Under the pieces are notes generated by a model, which saw only the letters and a list, made by a program, of their open reading frames with translations, was not told the origin of the DNA and did not search any database. A program made the translations under genes and the position numbers. From contig CANBUA010000302.1 of assembly GCA_947372535.1 (NCBI GenBank), positions 1-5,058 of the forward strand: a DNA stretch of 5,058 nucleotides, in the 5' to 3' direction. Position 1 is the stretch's first letter. Every line of letters begins with the position of its first letter. Below are positions 1 through 5,058 of this stretch, piece by piece. This stretch comes from Burkholderiales bacterium. Its GTDB lineage: Bacteria; Pseudomonadota; Gammaproteobacteria; Burkholderiales; Burkholderiaceae.

Positions 1-785
1 AGCAGCGCGAAATTGTGCGAAGGACCGAAGAACTGTTTGGCTTGGTTGACCGCATCGAATCCCGCTACACCGCCATGCTTGCCCACGCCCAACGCTTGGT
101 CCCCCAAGTCCTGGCCAAGGCCTTCCGTGGCGAGTTGGTTCAGCAAGACCCGCAAGACGAACCCGCCAGCGTGTTGCTCCAGCGTCTGGCCGCCAGCCAG
201 CCTGTCAAAGCGCCCATCTCGCGCGACAGGCCCCGTGCGAGACCCCTGGTGCAGCCCGACCCGCCCGAACTCAAACCAAGCGATTGGGCCACCTTGCCCA
301 GCGGCGAATGGGTCGCCCCGGCTGATCCTCAAGGCCAGGCCACCACCGTTTGCCTCACCGCCGTGTTGAGGGCCTGGGGCCAACCCATGCCCGAACGCGA
401 CGCTCGCTTGGCCACTCTGTTGTGCCAGCAGCCCCGCCTTTTCACCACTGTGTTGCCCGCAGCACAAGCCAAGCAGTGGTCGCGTCTGGTGGGCGATGAC
501 GCCAAAGCCTTGCCCGCCAAGGTGGCCCGCATCCAGCCTGCGGCCAACCATCATTGGGGGCAAGCCTTCAAGCGCATGAGGGCGAGCGGAGATCTGGTTG
601 AGTCAGGCAGTGGTGACAACGCCACCTGGGCCCTGGGCTCCGGCGCAGTGGGCATCACCACCACGGGCTGGCCCGATGGCCGAGCCGCGTTCGTGGTCGC
701 GCACTTGAGGGCCCATGGCATCGCTTCGGTCCTGCCCGCACTGGAGCCTGCCGCGCAGGAGTTCGTCAATGTCAGAGCAGCCTGA
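1..785 (+). CDS. hsdS: Type I restriction-modification specificity subunit, 3' part, with long C-terminal extension
   Basis: The reading frame is open from the left edge (first full codon at 3) to TGA at 783-785, giving 260 visible residues; the start and both main target-recognition domains lie outside the window. Visible residues 1-66 match the end of HsdS proteins: QREIVRRTEELF, DRIESRY, then the conserved LAKAFRGELVQQDP and DEPASVLLQRL. This is the distal conserved helix, which packs against HsdM, and the loop after it. HsdS normally ends about here. This protein continues for some 190 residues: a Pro/Arg-rich linker (about 67-95), then a compact part (about 100-220) ending in a winged-helix-like stretch (WGQAFKRMRASGDLVES followed by ATWALG), then an Ala-rich tail. 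HsdS directs methylation and cleavage by the HsdM/HsdR complex to a bipartite DNA site. The family call for the first 66 residues is firm; the role of the extension is unknown. An internal GTG at 15 is not the start, because the family match continues upstream of it. Confidence 0.92.
   Translation, partial: QREIVRRTEELFGLVDRIESRYTAMLAHAQRLVPQVLAKAFRGELVQQDPQDEPASVLLQRLAASQPVKAPISRDRPRARPLVQPDPPELKPSDWATLPSGEWVAPADPQGQATTVCLTAVLRAWGQPMPERDARLATLLCQQPRLFTTVLPAAQAKQWSRLVGDDAKALPAKVARIQPAANHHWGQAFKRMRASGDLVESGSGDNATWALGSGAVGITTTGWPDGRAAFVVAHLRAHGIASVLPALEPAAQEFVNVRAA
201..782 (+). other. HsdS C-terminal extension, winged-helix-like, function unknown
   Basis: This part of the HsdS frame lies beyond the usual end of the family. 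It starts with a proline- and arginine-rich linker. It continues with helices around the AVLRAWGQPMPERDARLATLL segment (visible residues about 120-140) and a block rich in hydrophobic and tryptophan positions. The sequence WGQAFKRMRASGDLVESG with a downstream TWALGS resembles the recognition helix and wing of a winged helix-turn-helix domain, judged by pattern only. Codon use does not change at the boundary, so this is not a read-through of non-coding DNA. It may be a separate domain fused to HsdS that links the restriction-modification complex to the ATPase encoded next. Confidence 0.5.
757..761 (+). promoter_or_regulatory. Ribosome binding site that decides the ATPase start
   Basis: AGGAG lies seven bases before the ATG at 769, inside the end of hsdS. 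The same frame also has an upstream ATG at 715, but the residues it would add (MASLRSCPHWSLPRRSSS) look like out-of-frame translation of hsdS. The site therefore favours 769 as the start. Confidence 0.75.
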
Positions 786-2751
786 TCTGTTCGGGCGCAC
801 GGCCCTGTCGGTCAACCCACCGCCAGGGGTCACTCAGCCCGTGCTGTGGGTGCGCCGCCTCACCATCTGGCGCGAGCCCGGTGAGCCGGTGCGTACCATC
901 GAACTCAGGCCCGGTTTGAACTTCGTCTGGTCGCCTGACCCGGCTGATATCCAAGGCCTGCGCGAGGCGGGCAGAGAGGGCGACCTGGGTCATGGCGCTG
1001 GCAAGACCCTGTTTTGCCGCCTGTTGCGTTACTGCCTGGGCGAAGACAGGTTCGCCCCGGAAGCCCAAAGGCTCAGCATTGGCCGGGCCTTTCTCAATGG
1101 CTGGGTGTCGGCTGAGGTGATGTTGCAAGGCCAGCTCTGGGGCGTGCTGCGGCCCCTGGGGGCCAATCGCAGTCACCTCGCAGTTGAGGGCGTTTTGCCT
1201 GAGCAACTGTTTGACCGACTGAACCAGCCCACAGGCATGGGACCCTTGCTGAAGGCCATCGAAGCGCAGGTGCTCACGCCCGATGTGGCCATGCGCATGC
1301 CCGTTCTGCGGGAGCACGACGCCTGGCGCGTGGCACTGGCTTGGCTGACACGCGATCAGGAGTGTCGCTTCAACCATGTGCTGGAGTGGCGTGCCGTTGA
1401 ATCGGATTCCGACTCCCCCACGCGAGCCATGTCCAAGGGGCGCTTGCAAGATGCCTTGCGGGTGCTGATTGGGGCCATTTCCGTGGAAGAAATCGCCTTG
1501 CAAGAGGCCATGTCCACCAAAGCAGAAACCCACAAAACCCAGTTGCAGGATGAGGCGCGGCGGGCATGGTCCTGCCAGCGAACCAGGTTCAGCATCATCC
1601 AGACGCTGGAGCTGACGGCGGACGATGTGCCCGATGGCAAGCTGGGCATTGAGTCGCTGCAACAGGCAGCTCGTCGGCATCTGGCCAACGTGAGCCAGGT
1701 CAGCCCTGGCGTGGACGTGTCCAACCTGGATGACTTGCGACAGCGTTACCGCGAGGCTGAGTCGAACGTTGGTGAACTGGCCAACAAGCTGGCGGGCTTG
1801 GCAGGCAGCTTGGAGCCGCATCAGGAGCTGCTGCGCCAATACCGGGCAGACTTGCCGTTCAGCTCGGTTCAAGTCCGTGCGGCTGAGGTACCCCAGTGCC
1901 AGATTTGTGAGGTGCCCATCGACCGGGTCAAGGCAGAGGGGTGCAAGCTGTCCCACAAACTGCCAGATCTGGATGGCTTGAAGAAGCGGCATGAAGAGCT
2001 GACGCTGAAGGTCAGCAAGCAGGAGGCGCTTGTCGCGGGCGTGCAATCATCTGTCACAGGATTGAATCAGCAGTTGGCGCCAGCGCGGGCCTCGCGAGAC
2101 ACCCTCAAACAGGCGTTGAGTCAGGCTGAAAAGTTGAATGAGCAACGCTCGTCTGTTTGGTTCAAGGCGCGCAGGACGCTGGATGACATCAAGCGCCTTG
2201 GTAGTGACTGGGACGAGTGGGAGTTGGCGCAACGACAAGTGGCCGAGGCCGCTACGCAGCTTGATGCGGACCGTGAAAGGTTGACGGCATTCAGAGGGCG
2301 CCAGGCAGTGGTCTTTGACAAACTGTCTGCTTACTTCGATGCCATCATTCGCGCGACGGTAGGTCCGTCGGCAACGGGCCGGATCCATCTGGATGGGCAG
2401 GGATTGAAGCTGGTGGTTCAGTTTGGCGGCGAGCGCTCGACGCCCGCCATCGAGTCACTGAAAGTCATCGCGTTCGATTTGGCCGTCATGTGCATGAGCA
2501 TCGAGGGTGGCACGCACCTGCCTGCGCTCCTGGTGCATGACAGCCCACGCGAGGCTGATCTGGGGCTGAGCGTGTACCACCGGCTTTTCAACATGGTCGT
2601 CGCATTGGAGGGTGAGGGCTGTTCAGCTTTCCAGTACATCGTCACCACGACCACACAGCCGCCCGCCGATTTCCAGGCCGAACCATGGTTGCGAGAGACA
2701 TTGCACGGAGCCCCCGCCACAGATCGTTTATTGAGGTGTGACTTGCCATGA
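769..2751 (+). CDS. SMC/Rad50-like ABC ATPase with mid-coil cysteine motif
   Basis: The product has 660 residues from the ATG at 769. It shows a split ABC ATPase plan. The N-terminal half-domain has a Walker A motif GHGAGKT at residues 74-80, followed by LFCRLLRYCLGE. A long, mainly helical and partly coiled-coil middle follows (about 225-515, rich in Glu, Gln, Leu and Arg). Near its centre is CQIC at 377-380, with C392 and H396 nearby, placed like the zinc hook of Rad50. The C-terminal half-domain has a signature-like stretch (FGGERSTPAIESLKVIAFD, about 552-570), a Walker B-like LPALLVHDSPRE with D591, and YIVTTTT (623-629) near the last strand. The residue after the Walker B aspartate is Ser, not the usual catalytic Glu; a Glu follows at 595. 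Such proteins bind and hydrolyse ATP and usually clamp or tether DNA. The start overlaps hsdS by 17 bases and the stop overlaps the next gene by ATGA. The ATPase class is secure; the exact subfamily (for example of the ABC three-component type) is not. Confidence 0.85.
   Translation: MSEQPDLFGRTALSVNPPPGVTQPVLWVRRLTIWREPGEPVRTIELRPGLNFVWSPDPADIQGLREAGREGDLGHGAGKTLFCRLLRYCLGEDRFAPEAQRLSIGRAFLNGWVSAEVMLQGQLWGVLRPLGANRSHLAVEGVLPEQLFDRLNQPTGMGPLLKAIEAQVLTPDVAMRMPVLREHDAWRVALAWLTRDQECRFNHVLEWRAVESDSDSPTRAMSKGRLQDALRVLIGAISVEEIALQEAMSTKAETHKTQLQDEARRAWSCQRTRFSIIQTLELTADDVPDGKLGIESLQQAARRHLANVSQVSPGVDVSNLDDLRQRYREAESNVGELANKLAGLAGSLEPHQELLRQYRADLPFSSVQVRAAEVPQCQICEVPIDRVKAEGCKLSHKLPDLDGLKKRHEELTLKVSKQEALVAGVQSSVTGLNQQLAPARASRDTLKQALSQAEKLNEQRSSVWFKARRTLDDIKRLGSDWDEWELAQRQVAEAATQLDADRERLTAFRGRQAVVFDKLSAYFDAIIRATVGPSATGRIHLDGQGLKLVVQFGGERSTPAIESLKVIAFDLAVMCMSIEGGTHLPALLVHDSPREADLGLSVYHRLFNMVVALEGEGCSAFQYIVTTTTQPPADFQAEPWLRETLHGAPATDRLLRCDLP
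1897..1956 (+). other. Zinc-hook-like motif in the ATPase coiled coil
   Basis: This segment encodes C377-Q-I-C380, then C392 and H396 (GCKLSH). CxxC at the turn between two coiled-coil arms is the Rad50 zinc-hook arrangement. The extra Cys and His could complete a single-chain four-ligand site instead of one shared between two subunits. Zinc binding is inferred from spacing only. Confidence 0.55.
2733..2738 (+). promoter_or_regulatory. Ribosome binding site for the DUF5655 gene
   Basis: GAGGTG lies nine bases before the ATG at 2748, within the last codons of the ATPase gene. It supports this start and allows both reinitiation from the ATGA overlap and independent ribosome loading. Confidence 0.6.
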
Positions 2752-3719
2752 GCGACATCAAGCTTTTCCGCCTGGCCAACGGCCTGGCCACCGAGTTACA
2801 AGGCGATGCATCCGATCTGGAAAGGCCATTGCAACACCTCATCGAGGCCAACCTCGAAGTGCTGCTGGGCATCCGCTTTTTGGCCACCGAGTACTCCACC
2901 GGCAAAACCCACGGCGGCCGCATCGATACCCTTGGGCTGGATGAAAACAACTGCCCGGTGATCCTGGAGTACAAGCGCTCGGTCGGCGAGAACGTCATCA
3001 ACCAAGGCTTGTTCTACCTGGACTGGCTGATGGACCACCAGGCTGAATTCAAGCTGCTGGCGCTCGACAAGTTCGGTAAGCCTGCCTCCGACGCCATTGA
3101 TTGGAGTGCGCCGCGCCTCGTTTGCATTGCCGCTGACTTCACCAAGTACGACGGCCACGCGGTGCAGCAAATCAACCGGAACATCGAGCTGATTCGCTAC
3201 CGCCGCTTTGGGGACGAACTCCTGCTGTTCGAGCTGGCCAACGCGTCGTCGGCATCAAGTCCGAGGCCTGGGGCAAGCAAGGCCATCAAACCCGTGAAAG
3301 ACGTCAAGGAGATCGGCGGAGAGAAGCCGGTGGGCCCCGATAAGCCGTATGCCGAAACGGTGGCCGCCTTGTCTCCTGCGCTGACTGATTTGCTCGCCTC
3401 GTTGGAGGACTACACACTCTCATTGGGCGACGATGTTCAGCGCAAGGAGCTGCGTCTCTACGTGGCATTCAAACGGCTCAAGAACTTTGCAACCCTCGTT
3501 CCGCAGAAAGGCCGATTGCTGCTTTACCTGCATCTGGATCCAACCAAGGTGATGAAGCTGCTGCCCAGTGCTGAAGACGTGTCTCAGAAGGGGCATTGGG
3601 GCACCGGCGATGTGCTCATCCCGCTGGCAATGCAGGCCGATCTAGAGGCTGCGAAGCCGTTCATTGCAGAGGCCTACGAAGGGCGATCACAGGCAAGCCG
3701 GAGCACCAATGTCGTCTGA
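2748..3719 (+). CDS. PD-(D/E)XK nuclease-like protein with C-terminal DUF5655-type domain
   Basis: The product has 323 residues and starts in an ATGA overlap with the ATPase stop. Residues 20-160 follow the PD-(D/E)XK nuclease order seen in NucS/DUF91-like proteins. There is an acidic helix with E33 and E37 (LIEANLEVLL). D60 in GGRIDTLGLD and ILEYKR with E74 and K76 give the D...ExK core. Then comes NVINQGLFYLDWL with Q86 and Y90, the conserved QxxxY helix. All core residues are present, so an active DNA nuclease is plausible. A Ser/Pro/Lys/Gly-rich linker (about 166-200) joins a C-terminal domain (about 205-312) containing LRLYVAFKRLKNFATLVPQ, LLLYLHLDP and KGHWGTGD. This resembles DUF5655, a domain of unknown role often found behind such nuclease domains; relatives are sometimes labelled 'predicted transport protein', but no membrane segment or signal peptide is visible. 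Its place after hsdS and an SMC-like ATPase suggests a cytoplasmic effector acting on DNA. The target is unknown. Confidence 0.82.
   Translation: MSDIKLFRLANGLATELQGDASDLERPLQHLIEANLEVLLGIRFLATEYSTGKTHGGRIDTLGLDENNCPVILEYKRSVGENVINQGLFYLDWLMDHQAEFKLLALDKFGKPASDAIDWSAPRLVCIAADFTKYDGHAVQQINRNIELIRYRRFGDELLLFELANASSASSPRPGASKAIKPVKDVKEIGGEKPVGPDKPYAETVAALSPALTDLLASLEDYTLSLGDDVQRKELRLYVAFKRLKNFATLVPQKGRLLLYLHLDPTKVMKLLPSAEDVSQKGHWGTGDVLIPLAMQADLEAAKPFIAEAYEGRSQASRSTNVV
3700..3703 (+). promoter_or_regulatory. Ribosome binding site that favours the 3709 start
   Basis: GGAG lies five bases before the ATG at 3709, inside the end of the DUF5655 gene. An in-frame upstream ATG at 3664 would give a longer overlap of 56 bases and adds residues (MQRPTKGDHRQAGAP) that look like shadow coding. 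The later start is preferred. Confidence 0.55.
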
Positions 3720-4746
3720 AGCGCACCAGATCGATCCGCAGGATGCATCTCTGTTGATCGCGTTGTTCAAAGCCTCGGAATCGGTTAAGCCATGGGTAGA
3801 GGTGAACGCGTTTCGCCATGCCCACGTTGAACGCCGGAAGGACATTGATCGTCTCAATCAAATGGGGTTCATTCGCAAAGAGCGAATCGGTGAGCAGGAG
3901 TTCTACTGCTTGAGCTTGACCGTGCTGAAGCAGCTTGGGGAGCAGCCCGCCTTCGCGGAGATTCTTGAAACGGCGAATTCAATGTGGCAAGCGTTTCGAG
4001 GGCACTTCAAGAAGTCATCGAGTGCGCCAGTCACCTTGAGAGCGATTTCAGATCTGATCGGCAAGCCACTGGACCAAGTGACCCTCGTGCATACCTACAT
4101 GCGTGAGTGGTGGCATACCCCTCACTGTCACACGCCTGCTGATGCGATGTACCAGTCGGTGATCGTCAACGAACATGTGTTCGATCATTCATCATTCGAT
4201 GACTGCATTCGGGAGCTAAGCCAGTTTCAGTTGACTGGCCTTCACACTGTTCCCAACGGCTTTCGAGTTTCTTCAGCCTTGATCGACAGCTCGGAGGCTC
4301 TAGCTGCTTCATCATTGCCAGCCTTCGTGGAGCCATCTTGGTTCGACAAGTTGCCGCAACATGCGCAGGCGCTCATGCGTGAGATGCATGTGGCCCGCCA
4401 CTCTGGCCTCGTGGCGCTGACGGCGATGGGCATCCGAGCGGTGATCGACGTGGTGGCCGATGACTTGCTCAAGTCTGCTGAGTGGGGCTTTGGGGAAAAG
4501 CTAACCGCTCTCCATGAAGATGAACACCTGACGGCAGATCAGCTTCAAACGATCAAGGCGGTGGTTGAGGTTGGCCACGCTGCAGCGCACCGGGCGCACG
4601 TTCCCTCAGATCGAGATGTGCAGTTGATGCAGGAGGCCCTGGACCATGTGTTGTGTTCGGCCTACGGTCTGCAGAACGCACAGCAAGAACTGGCGTCGAG
4701 AACGCCTGTCGGCTCAAAACCCACCAAGCGCCGTAAGGTCAGCTAG
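3709..4746 (+). CDS. DUF4145 domain protein with winged-helix-like N-terminus
   Basis: The product has 345 residues from the ATG at 3709, overlapping the previous stop by 11 bases. Residues about 10-75 look like a winged helix: helices LLIALFKASESV and RRKDIDRLNQMGFIRKE, then a wing-like EQEFYCLSL. A second helical block (about 105-170) is not recognised. Residues about 208-325 match the DUF4145 pattern: LPQHAQALMREMHVARHSG, then AMGIRAVIDVVADDL with R243, FGEKLTALHEDEHLTADQL, and VGHAAAHRAH with G289, H290 and H294. DUF4145 occurs alone and also at the N-terminus of some HsdR subunits; it is small, helical, and of unknown activity. The tail KPTKRRKVS is strongly basic. By hand count, 4261-4320 has 30 G+C in 60 bases against 42 in 60 for 301-360, so this gene is less GC-rich than hsdS and may have a separate origin. 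It is likely an adaptor or effector in the same operon; no function can be assigned from sequence. Confidence 0.8.
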   Translation: MSSEAHQIDPQDASLLIALFKASESVKPWVEVNAFRHAHVERRKDIDRLNQMGFIRKERIGEQEFYCLSLTVLKQLGEQPAFAEILETANSMWQAFRGHFKKSSSAPVTLRAISDLIGKPLDQVTLVHTYMREWWHTPHCHTPADAMYQSVIVNEHVFDHSSFDDCIRELSQFQLTGLHTVPNGFRVSSALIDSSEALAASSLPAFVEPSWFDKLPQHAQALMREMHVARHSGLVALTAMGIRAVIDVVADDLLKSAEWGFGEKLTALHEDEHLTADQLQTIKAVVEVGHAAAHRAHVPSDRDVQLMQEALDHVLCSAYGLQNAQQELASRTPVGSKPTKRRKVS

Positions 4747-4870
4747 TTTCTGCGAACATCTGAACCAATCCGCTGACTGCTTACGGACTCTATTCCTGTG
4801 GAGGCAATCGAAGTCGGCCAACCTTTACGGACTCTATTCCATGGTTACTGACTCTATTCCGTTGAACCAC
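4747..4870 (+). other. Non-coding junction between the cassette and gph
   Basis: This 124-base gap lies between the TAG of the DUF4145 gene and the likely gph start. It holds three direct repeats and no convincing stem-loop terminator or sigma-70 promoter. GGAGG at 4800-4804 looks like a ribosome binding site but has no start codon at a useful distance. The gap marks the change from accessory genes to a probable housekeeping gene. Confidence 0.6.
4781..4860 (+). repeat. Three direct copies of a 16-base repeat
   Basis: TTACGGACTCTATTCC occurs at 4781-4796 and 4825-4840, and as TTACTGACTCTATTCC at 4845-4860. Starts are 44 and 20 bases apart, close to whole numbers of DNA helical turns, so the copies would lie on roughly one face of the helix. 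All copies point the same way, and the flanks between them are not conserved. Possible explanations are binding sites for a regulator of gph, the multiple end repeats of a transposon (as in IS21 or Tn7-like ends), or a dispersed genomic repeat. The window alone cannot separate these. Confidence 0.85.
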
Positions 4871-5058
4871 ATGCCCTACCAAGCCGCCATCATCGACCTC
4901 GACGGTACGCTCGTCGACACCCTGGGTGACTTCCAGATCATCCTGGCCCACACCCTGTCCGACATGGGCTGCCACGCCATCGAGATCGCGCGGGTGGACC
5001 GCCATTTCCTCTCGCTCACCGTGGGCAAGGGCTCCGAAGACCTGCTGCGCAAATCCAT
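4871..5058 (+). CDS. gph: HAD-family hydrolase, probably phosphoglycolate phosphatase, 5' part
   Basis: The frame from the ATG at 4871 runs off the right edge with no stop, giving 62 full codons. The protein starts MPYQAAIIDLDGTLVDTLGD. D9-L-D11-G-T is HAD motif I, with the aspartyl nucleophile D9 and acid/base D11. The following helix (FQIILAHTLSDMG) and VGKGSEDLLRK (residues about 51-61) fit the cap domain of Gph-type phosphatases, which remove phosphate from 2-phosphoglycolate. The HAD family is certain; the substrate is inferred from similarity to betaproteobacterial Gph. No strong ribosome binding site precedes 4871. The same frame stays open upstream to an ATG at 4841 (would add MVTDSIPLNH), which falls between repeats two and three and also lacks a clear binding site. 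The 4871 start is chosen because it begins directly before the conserved first strand. Confidence 0.85.
   Translation, partial: MPYQAAIIDLDGTLVDTLGDFQIILAHTLSDMGCHAIEIARVDRHFLSLTVGKGSEDLLRKS

Follow-up and report, generated by a model that had tools for sequence, protein, structure and literature searches.

Why should the specificity subunit gene (hsdS) of a Type I restriction-modification (R-M) system run directly into the gene for an SMC-like ATPase? The question is raised by a stretch of 5,058 nucleotides from a Burkholderiales bacterium (contig CANBUA010000302.1 of assembly GCA_947372535.1), referred to here at its full length as the window. The new and best-supported fact is that a common domain, the C-terminal "tail" of HsdS, ties an ATPase resembling LmuB of the Lamassu systems to two kinds of DNA-modification machinery. 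The tail, which is absent from a preliminary description of this DNA, is likely to be the physical link between hsdS and the ATPase. Open reading frame (ORF) calling bears out the four consecutive plus-strand genes of that description, with successive overlaps of 17, 4 and 11 nucleotides for the chosen starts. The listed ORF of the ATPase opens at 715, and the ATG at 769 was taken as its start; for the DUF4145 gene the ATG at 3709 was taken, with a TTG at 3664 as the alternative. The window holds only the 3' end of hsdS, and neither hsdM nor hsdR is seen in it. The features are as follows.

3..785, plus strand: C-terminal part of HsdS, 260 codons, open 5' end (PADLOC Specificity_I, 2e-20, residues 1-109; HsdS profile match, residues 3-206)
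237..782, plus strand: winged-helix tail, the C-terminal extension of HsdS, proposed to be LmuC-like (no Pfam family)
769..785, plus strand: overlap of the HsdS tail with the ATPase start, 17 nucleotides (same length at 20 of 23 tail-ATPase junctions)
769..2751, plus strand: LmuB-like SMC/Rad50-type ATPase, 660 residues (PADLOC LmuB, 2e-13)
988..1008, plus strand: Walker A motif GHGAGKT, ATPase residues 74-80 (H75, G76, G78 and K79 invariant in 19 aligned sequences)
1897..1908, plus strand: zinc-hook-like CxxC, ATPase residues 377-380 (invariant columns in 19 aligned sequences)
2536..2553, plus strand: end of Walker B, HDSPRE, ATPase residues 590-595 (invariant in 19 aligned sequences)
2748..3719, plus strand: PDC-S18, a candidate PD-(D/E)XK nuclease with C-terminal DUF5655, 323 residues from an ATG (PADLOC PDC-S18, 4e-133)
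3709..4746, plus strand: DUF4145 protein, 345 residues, DUF4145 at residues 235-311 (Pfam, 6.4e-7)

Residues 1 to about 68 of the window's HsdS reading frame match the HsdS proteins of relatives, and from about residue 79 there follows a C-terminal extension for which no Pfam family was found at E<=0.1. In the relatives fetched through the ATPase (12 genome loci and 9 of 10 plasmid records), a tail domain of ~180 residues usually ends the protein encoded just 5' of the ATPase. A profile scan covered 43 loci, every one collected through the ATPase, so that it cannot show a tail without an ATPase, and found the tail in 23. The tail is carried by HsdS in seven loci (the window, L001-L004, L010 and L011), and the pairing of hsdS with the SMC-like ATPase, taken as a unit in the preliminary description, thus recurs. 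In 14 loci (L005-L009, L013-L018, L020, L051 and L052) it is carried by a large Eco57I/MmeI- or DrmMI-like methyltransferase. The methyltransferase of L009 is in pieces; the carrier ORF there lacks a PADLOC match, and its methyltransferase matches are weak (56 and 43 bits). L019 has a tail remnant without a carrier, and in L084, a viral contig, the carrier is of unassigned kind; these two loci are outside the alignment from which the tail profile was built, which includes the other 21. The 20 loci without a tail match comprise 18 of a sister clade (L053-L070), L012, where the ATPase is a fragment, and L085, which is cut by a contig end. The carrier overlaps the start of the ATPase in all 23 tail loci, by 17 nucleotides in 20 of them and by 14, 11 and 29 in L020, L052 and L084, as computed with the start codon nearest the profile start. 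Tabulation of neighbours, as the preliminary description had proposed, places a DNA-recognition or modification protein beside the ATPase in most other loci too. L021, outside the scan, has a separate protein of 165 residues overlapping a DUF2326 gene by 22 nucleotides.

Searches of plasmids and genomes that started from the tail led back to the ATPase. On plasmids, the window's tail retrieved six records, all within the 10 ATPase records. The family of G005, with 399 genomes, contains 12 that match the ATPase profile, two of them strongly (>1,000 bits) and the others at 118-150 bits; the two strong ones, and no others, have the tail. In the order of G001, two of 396 genomes have the tail, and these are the two that, out of 399, match the ATPase strongly (1,077 and 873 bits). 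These genome searches scored the best 8 first-look candidates per genome; G001 and G005 were chosen as centres for having the ATPase and G002 was known already, which makes G319 the single fresh positive. In the protein database, a tail search confined to candidates of limited length returned 22 proteins of 132-292 residues, among which 12 are named, 11 as hypothetical and one as a partial restriction endonuclease. Some of these short proteins may be stand-alone tails.

The HsdS-linked loci are recognisable Type I R-M loci. The order hsdR-hsdM-yhcG-hsdS(tail)-ATPase is present in all five HsdS-linked relatives with enough upstream DNA (L001, L002, L004, L010 and L011), which thus have upstream the hsdM and hsdR for which the preliminary description had proposed to look. 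The hsdR and hsdM assignments are profile matches, with Pfam confirming HsdR in four relatives and HsdM in one. The gene between hsdM and hsdS encodes a YhcG/DUF1016 nuclease, matched by PADLOC PDC-S02 in L001. In L010 hsdS is in two pieces, as is yhcG in L010 and L011. HsdS of L001 and L002 has two Methylase_S stretches each, in keeping with the two target-recognition domains of Type I specificity subunits; of the window's own HsdS the C-terminal part alone is covered. HsdR of L001, L002, L010 and L011 is of the EcoEI type with an N-terminal DUF4145 (in L002 below the Pfam cut-off), a family to which the domain of the window's fourth protein also belongs. The HsdS-linked relatives gave no profile match for YprA, BrxH or a methyltransferase. 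L001 has a relaxase-like gene on the opposite strand after the system.

The ATPase itself resembles LmuB: it is LmuB-like in PADLOC, and is SMC/Rad50-like with the expected length of about 650 residues. It is also DUF2326-like at 6e-4, below the Pfam cut-off. In the structure model, which has the LmuB-like fold and consists of head and coiled coil only, helices 320-373 and 401-531 lie on either side of the CxxC; a third Cys, at residue 392, is likewise invariant in the 19 aligned sequences, the window's included. A sequence search of PDB chains gave no useful relative for the ATPase, the best matches being coiled-coil stretches of SMC proteins; Lamassu chains, whose deposited name is DUF3732 protein, came up at E 0.02. 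The residue after the Walker B Asp is usually Glu. Here it is Ser (HDSPRE), which suggests, from the motif, that ATP hydrolysis is slow. In PADLOC, the ATPases of five relatives (E<=1e-5) and that of the window (E<=0.1) matched LmuB, PDC-M68B or, in the window only and weakly, JetC; the PDC-M68B matches of L001, L013 and L020 are at 1e-13 to 3e-19. The Hma system (helicase, m5C methylase and ATPase) was considered since relatives hold a helicase, a methyltransferase and an ATPase, and HmaC was not matched by any of these ATPases. According to the available part of its description, the Hma methylase differs from the methylase of the relatives' loci (PMC8565338).

For the tail, neither a sequence search of PDB chains nor a search of BFVD gave a useful relative, and the 50 structural matches listed for it do not include the small Lamassu chains from Salmonella (entries 9hqx and 9hqu). 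From its context, the tail is likely to be a true LmuC.

How often did the arrangement arise? In an ATPase tree of 39 rows, built by a quick method and excluding the partial ATPases of L012, L054, L055 and L085, the seven HsdS-linked rows form one group (SH-aLRT 100). This group adjoins the methyltransferase-linked pair L013/L014 with a support of 85, below the starred level, and sits within a starred group of 14 rows (99) that includes seven methyltransferase-linked ones. A tail tree of 23 rows, weak in its deep branches, also unites the HsdS-linked rows (100) and repeats several of the pairs. In the carrier test on the tree all non-HsdS rows were labelled as methyltransferase, including L019, L084 and L058 of unassigned carrier, and with the root placed towards the sister clade a single carrier change suffices. 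The sister-clade ATPases are 22-25% identical (10 rows aligned), and a methyltransferase match lies upstream in 17 of the 18 loci (not in L058), with both helicases in 15. Since the sister clade also lies beside a methyltransferase, the module of ATPase and tail probably began with a methyltransferase and, within this sample, moved to HsdS once.

The sister-clade methyltransferases (L057 and L059-L070) end in a common domain at the position of the tail that is weakly tail-like. As a tail homologue it was not accepted: hhalign gives P 0.0026-0.008 over 88-89 columns in the same place, and another segment of the same proteins reaches P 0.006 over 32 columns, so that the likeness is suggestive only. 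The protein encoded upstream of DUF2326 in Priestia likewise failed to match the tail profile. Some loci appear to be mobile or decayed. TniB-type and Mu-type transposition genes downstream of the system in L013 and L017 suggest that these systems are carried as transposon cargo. L019, a Paracoccus versutus plasmid, has a tail remnant of ~70 residues followed by an uninterrupted ATPase gene and an HNH gene, and its upstream operon appears to have been lost.

The genes downstream of the ATPase are less constant. The third protein of the window is a full-length member of PDC-S18 (441.9 bits over residues 1-315) that also matches DUF5655 (3.6e-11) and, below the Pfam cut-off, NucS_C. It has D60 and E74-x-K76, which we take to be the catalytic PD-(D/E)XK residues. 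PDC-S18 follows the ATPase in four of the seven HsdS-linked loci (the window, L002, L003 and L011) and in none of the 16 other tail loci. Conversely, an HNH protein follows in eight of these 16 (L015-L020, L051 and L052) and in no HsdS-linked locus. Three of the seven HsdS-linked and eight of the 16 other tail loci have no PDC-S18 or HNH match directly downstream. Small HNH proteins directly after the ATPase are seen in many ARMADA-like operons and in the distant sister clade too (in addition to the eight loci above, L061, L062, L065, L068, L070 and L085), and Pfam HNH_2 is confirmed in L019, L020, L051, L052, L061 and L062. Other candidate effectors near the ATPase, downstream of it, are a HEPN/RES-domain protein (L005) and a GmrSD-like protein (L014).

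PDC-S18 also occurs by itself. Its relatives are found on 41 plasmid records, six of which were inspected. Six of 12 scanned PDC-S18 loci have HsdM/HsdS matches nearby (L073, L074 and L086-L089, where L086 and L087 look identical and L089 is weak), and no ATPase or tail match was found in any of the 12; in L073 the PDC-S18 gene overlaps hsdS by 4 nucleotides. Because it lies near Type I genes without the ATPase, PDC-S18 seems to accompany Type I loci independently. Among the 43 ATPase loci, the DUF4145 protein profile finds the window alone; the protein database holds 40 such proteins at E<=1e-5, and no relative was found in viral contigs. The closest relatives of the window have 97% identity in the ATPase (P0002) and 87% in the DUF4145 protein (P0144). 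Further downstream, in the gap that separates the DUF4145 gene from the next ORF, a 19-nucleotide direct repeat occurs three times (4778-4860; shared end GACTCTATTCC, spacings of 44 and 20); the repeats are possibly regulatory or mark a boundary. That ORF (4871-5056) is the 5' part of a HAD-family gene that ends at the contig edge, and is phosphoglycolate phosphatase-like (best match 4e-6, partial and below the curated cut-off).

The anatomy of the tail-ATPase arrangement is well supported; for its function we infer the following. Tentatively, and with slightly less than even confidence, we read the window as the end of a Type I R-M locus whose HsdS carries a fused LmuC-like winged-helix docking domain next to the matching LmuB-like ATPase, in other words as a methylation-guided Lamassu. 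The tail would hold a dimer of the ATPase on the M2S (or R2M2S) complex. Recognition of unmethylated sites in incoming DNA by HsdS, or by the ARMADA-like methyltransferase, would bring the ATPase to that DNA, where it could clamp the unmodified DNA or sense ends made by HsdR. It would finally license a nuclease, be it HsdR, the YhcG-type nuclease of the relatives, or PDC-S18 of this locus. In this same reading, and with the same reserve, PDC-S18 and the DUF4145 protein would be dispensable additions to the pair of tail and ATPase. A wider version, held somewhat more cautiously, is that a portable LmuC-like domain and its LmuB-like ATPase core have been captured by DNA-modification systems, normally on an ARMADA-like methyltransferase and once moved to a Type I specificity subunit, so that the self/non-self marking of R-M would target a structure-sensing ATPase.

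Other explanations have to be weighed. The tethered ATPase could belong to the restriction machine proper, holding or processing HsdR-made ends (or acting with ARMADA-like helicases) in the manner of Rad50, for fuller DNA degradation and without a separate alarm or effector. The R-M complex may indeed suffice in the 11 tail loci with neither PDC-S18 nor HNH directly downstream, and the likeness of the ATPase model extends to Rad50 and SMC. However, the widest structural matches are with Lamassu and YydD, not Rad50, a nuclease gene often follows the ATPase in HsdS-linked and other tail loci alike, and the Ser in Walker B, with the slow hydrolysis it suggests, fits such a role poorly; we consider it rather unlikely. 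Less probable is a guard in the manner of PrrC, in which the R-M complex would keep ATPase and nuclease silent through the tail until a phage anti-restriction protein disables the complex and frees them. PrrC holds its effector within the same protein, whereas the ATPase here is head and coiled coil only, and in several loci the gene directly downstream is not a recognised effector. Nevertheless, the physical fusion to HsdS would make a good latch, and PrrC provides a precedent that couplings of this sort exist, being an anticodon nuclease that is silenced by the associated type Ic R-M protein and activated by a phage anti-restriction peptide, according to the part of the article available (PMC3874168).

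The preliminary description had raised the possibility of a dedicated system of all four window genes. The pair of hsdS and ATPase survives from this proposal of a joint operon, but conserved membership of PDC-S18 and DUF4145 does not, as they are present in only four and one of the 23 tail loci, respectively. That description had itself named homologues living apart from one another as an argument against the proposal, and this is what PDC-S18 shows on plasmids and in the scanned loci without ATPase or tail. The overlap of all four genes in the window speaks for such a system, as does a hint of co-occurrence, two of the 40 DUF4145 homologues apparently sharing their source with an ATPase relative (judged by eye, among 120 of 1398 listed). 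On balance the four-gene system is largely refuted and highly improbable. We give least credence of all to the idea that the tail is simply one more DNA-binding winged helix in HsdS, paired with the ATPase by gene order alone and making no contact with it. Winged-helix domains of many kinds do match the tail at similar Z, but the same tail and ATPase are kept together on two different carriers, which counts against mere gene order. Moreover, all six tail-bearing plasmid records have the ATPase, and the HsdS group and several pairs are common to both trees.

If the methylation-guided reading is true, it bears on a wider problem. In our judgement, the field has yet to explain how SMC-like immune ATPases such as Lamassu tell the chromosome and foreign DNA apart. 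Here, an apparent Lamassu docking piece is fused to proteins that make this distinction by sequence and methylation, and the recognition domains of HsdS, or methylation, would offer a direct genetic handle on ATPase targeting. The arrangement suggests a merger of two different anti-phage machineries, and an exchange among defence systems that extends beyond effectors to sensor modules.

Among known systems, the candidate single-gene defence PDC-S18 of PADLOC clearly includes the window's third gene, which overlaps the ATPase gene here, whereas elsewhere it stands alone or beside Type I genes; PDC-M68B is matched by the ATPase relatives. We found no literature on PDC-S18, or on DUF2326 with restriction-modification, and, at the level of titles and abstract beginnings of the papers listed, none on an HsdS-Lamassu or ARMADA-Lamassu fusion, which the papers on ABC-3C classification and Lamassu structure may mention. 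PrrC and RloC are likewise Rad50-like ATPases of anti-phage or damage responses, RloC having a zinc hook and PrrC being tied genetically and functionally to Type I R-M, as far as the text available to us goes (PMC3874168). The ATPase described here differs in lacking an anticodon-nuclease part, and its link to R-M is a domain fused to HsdS.

ARMADA Type I has the order YprA helicase, BrxHII-like helicase, PglX-like methyltransferase in the accessible portion of its description (Bell et al. 2025, PMC12458937). The methyltransferase-linked tail operons show an ARMADA-like gene order: both helicases also lie upstream of the methyltransferase in 11 of the 14 loci, with one further gene of ~530 residues in between in L005 and L006. 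In L013/L071 the order is a DEAD helicase of 1720 residues (with a weak match to the Zn-binding part of MrfA), an SNF2-type helicase best fitting the DpdE/DrmD models, and a DrmMI-like methyltransferase. A search for terms in the main text of that description, as available, revealed no partner of the ABC ATPase, SMC, Rad50 or Lamassu kind, so that ARMADA-like operons would gain an ATPase partner not found there (PMC12458937). The window's HsdS-linked kind, in contrast, lacks the YprA helicase and PglX-like methyltransferase of ARMADA Type I and has Type I R-M instead. Compared with Type I R-M of the EcoEI-type HsdR, the five relatives share hsdR-hsdM-hsdS and differ in the extra domain of HsdS and the overlapping ATPase gene.

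The closest comparison is with Lamassu (LmuA/LmuB/LmuC), of the ABC-3C class that was reportedly defined in the classification of Krishnan et al. 2020. LmuC, the middle component, is lacking in some Lamassu systems. Shared are the ATPase of ~650 residues, its short coiled coils and its CxxC hook, the small winged-helix partner encoded just upstream of it and the frequent presence of a nuclease gene nearby. A conserved counterpart of LmuA, the effector with a docking domain at its C-terminus, is not apparent here: PDC-S18 or HNH_2 often comes after the ATPase, neither of them conserved, and none of the window's proteins matched LmuA at E<=0.1 in PADLOC. Walker B reads D-S, whereas LmuB generally has a Glu-to-Gln change, judging from the part of the source available (PMC10586767). 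Above all, the small partner does not stand on its own here: it forms the C-terminal end of either HsdS or a large methyltransferase.
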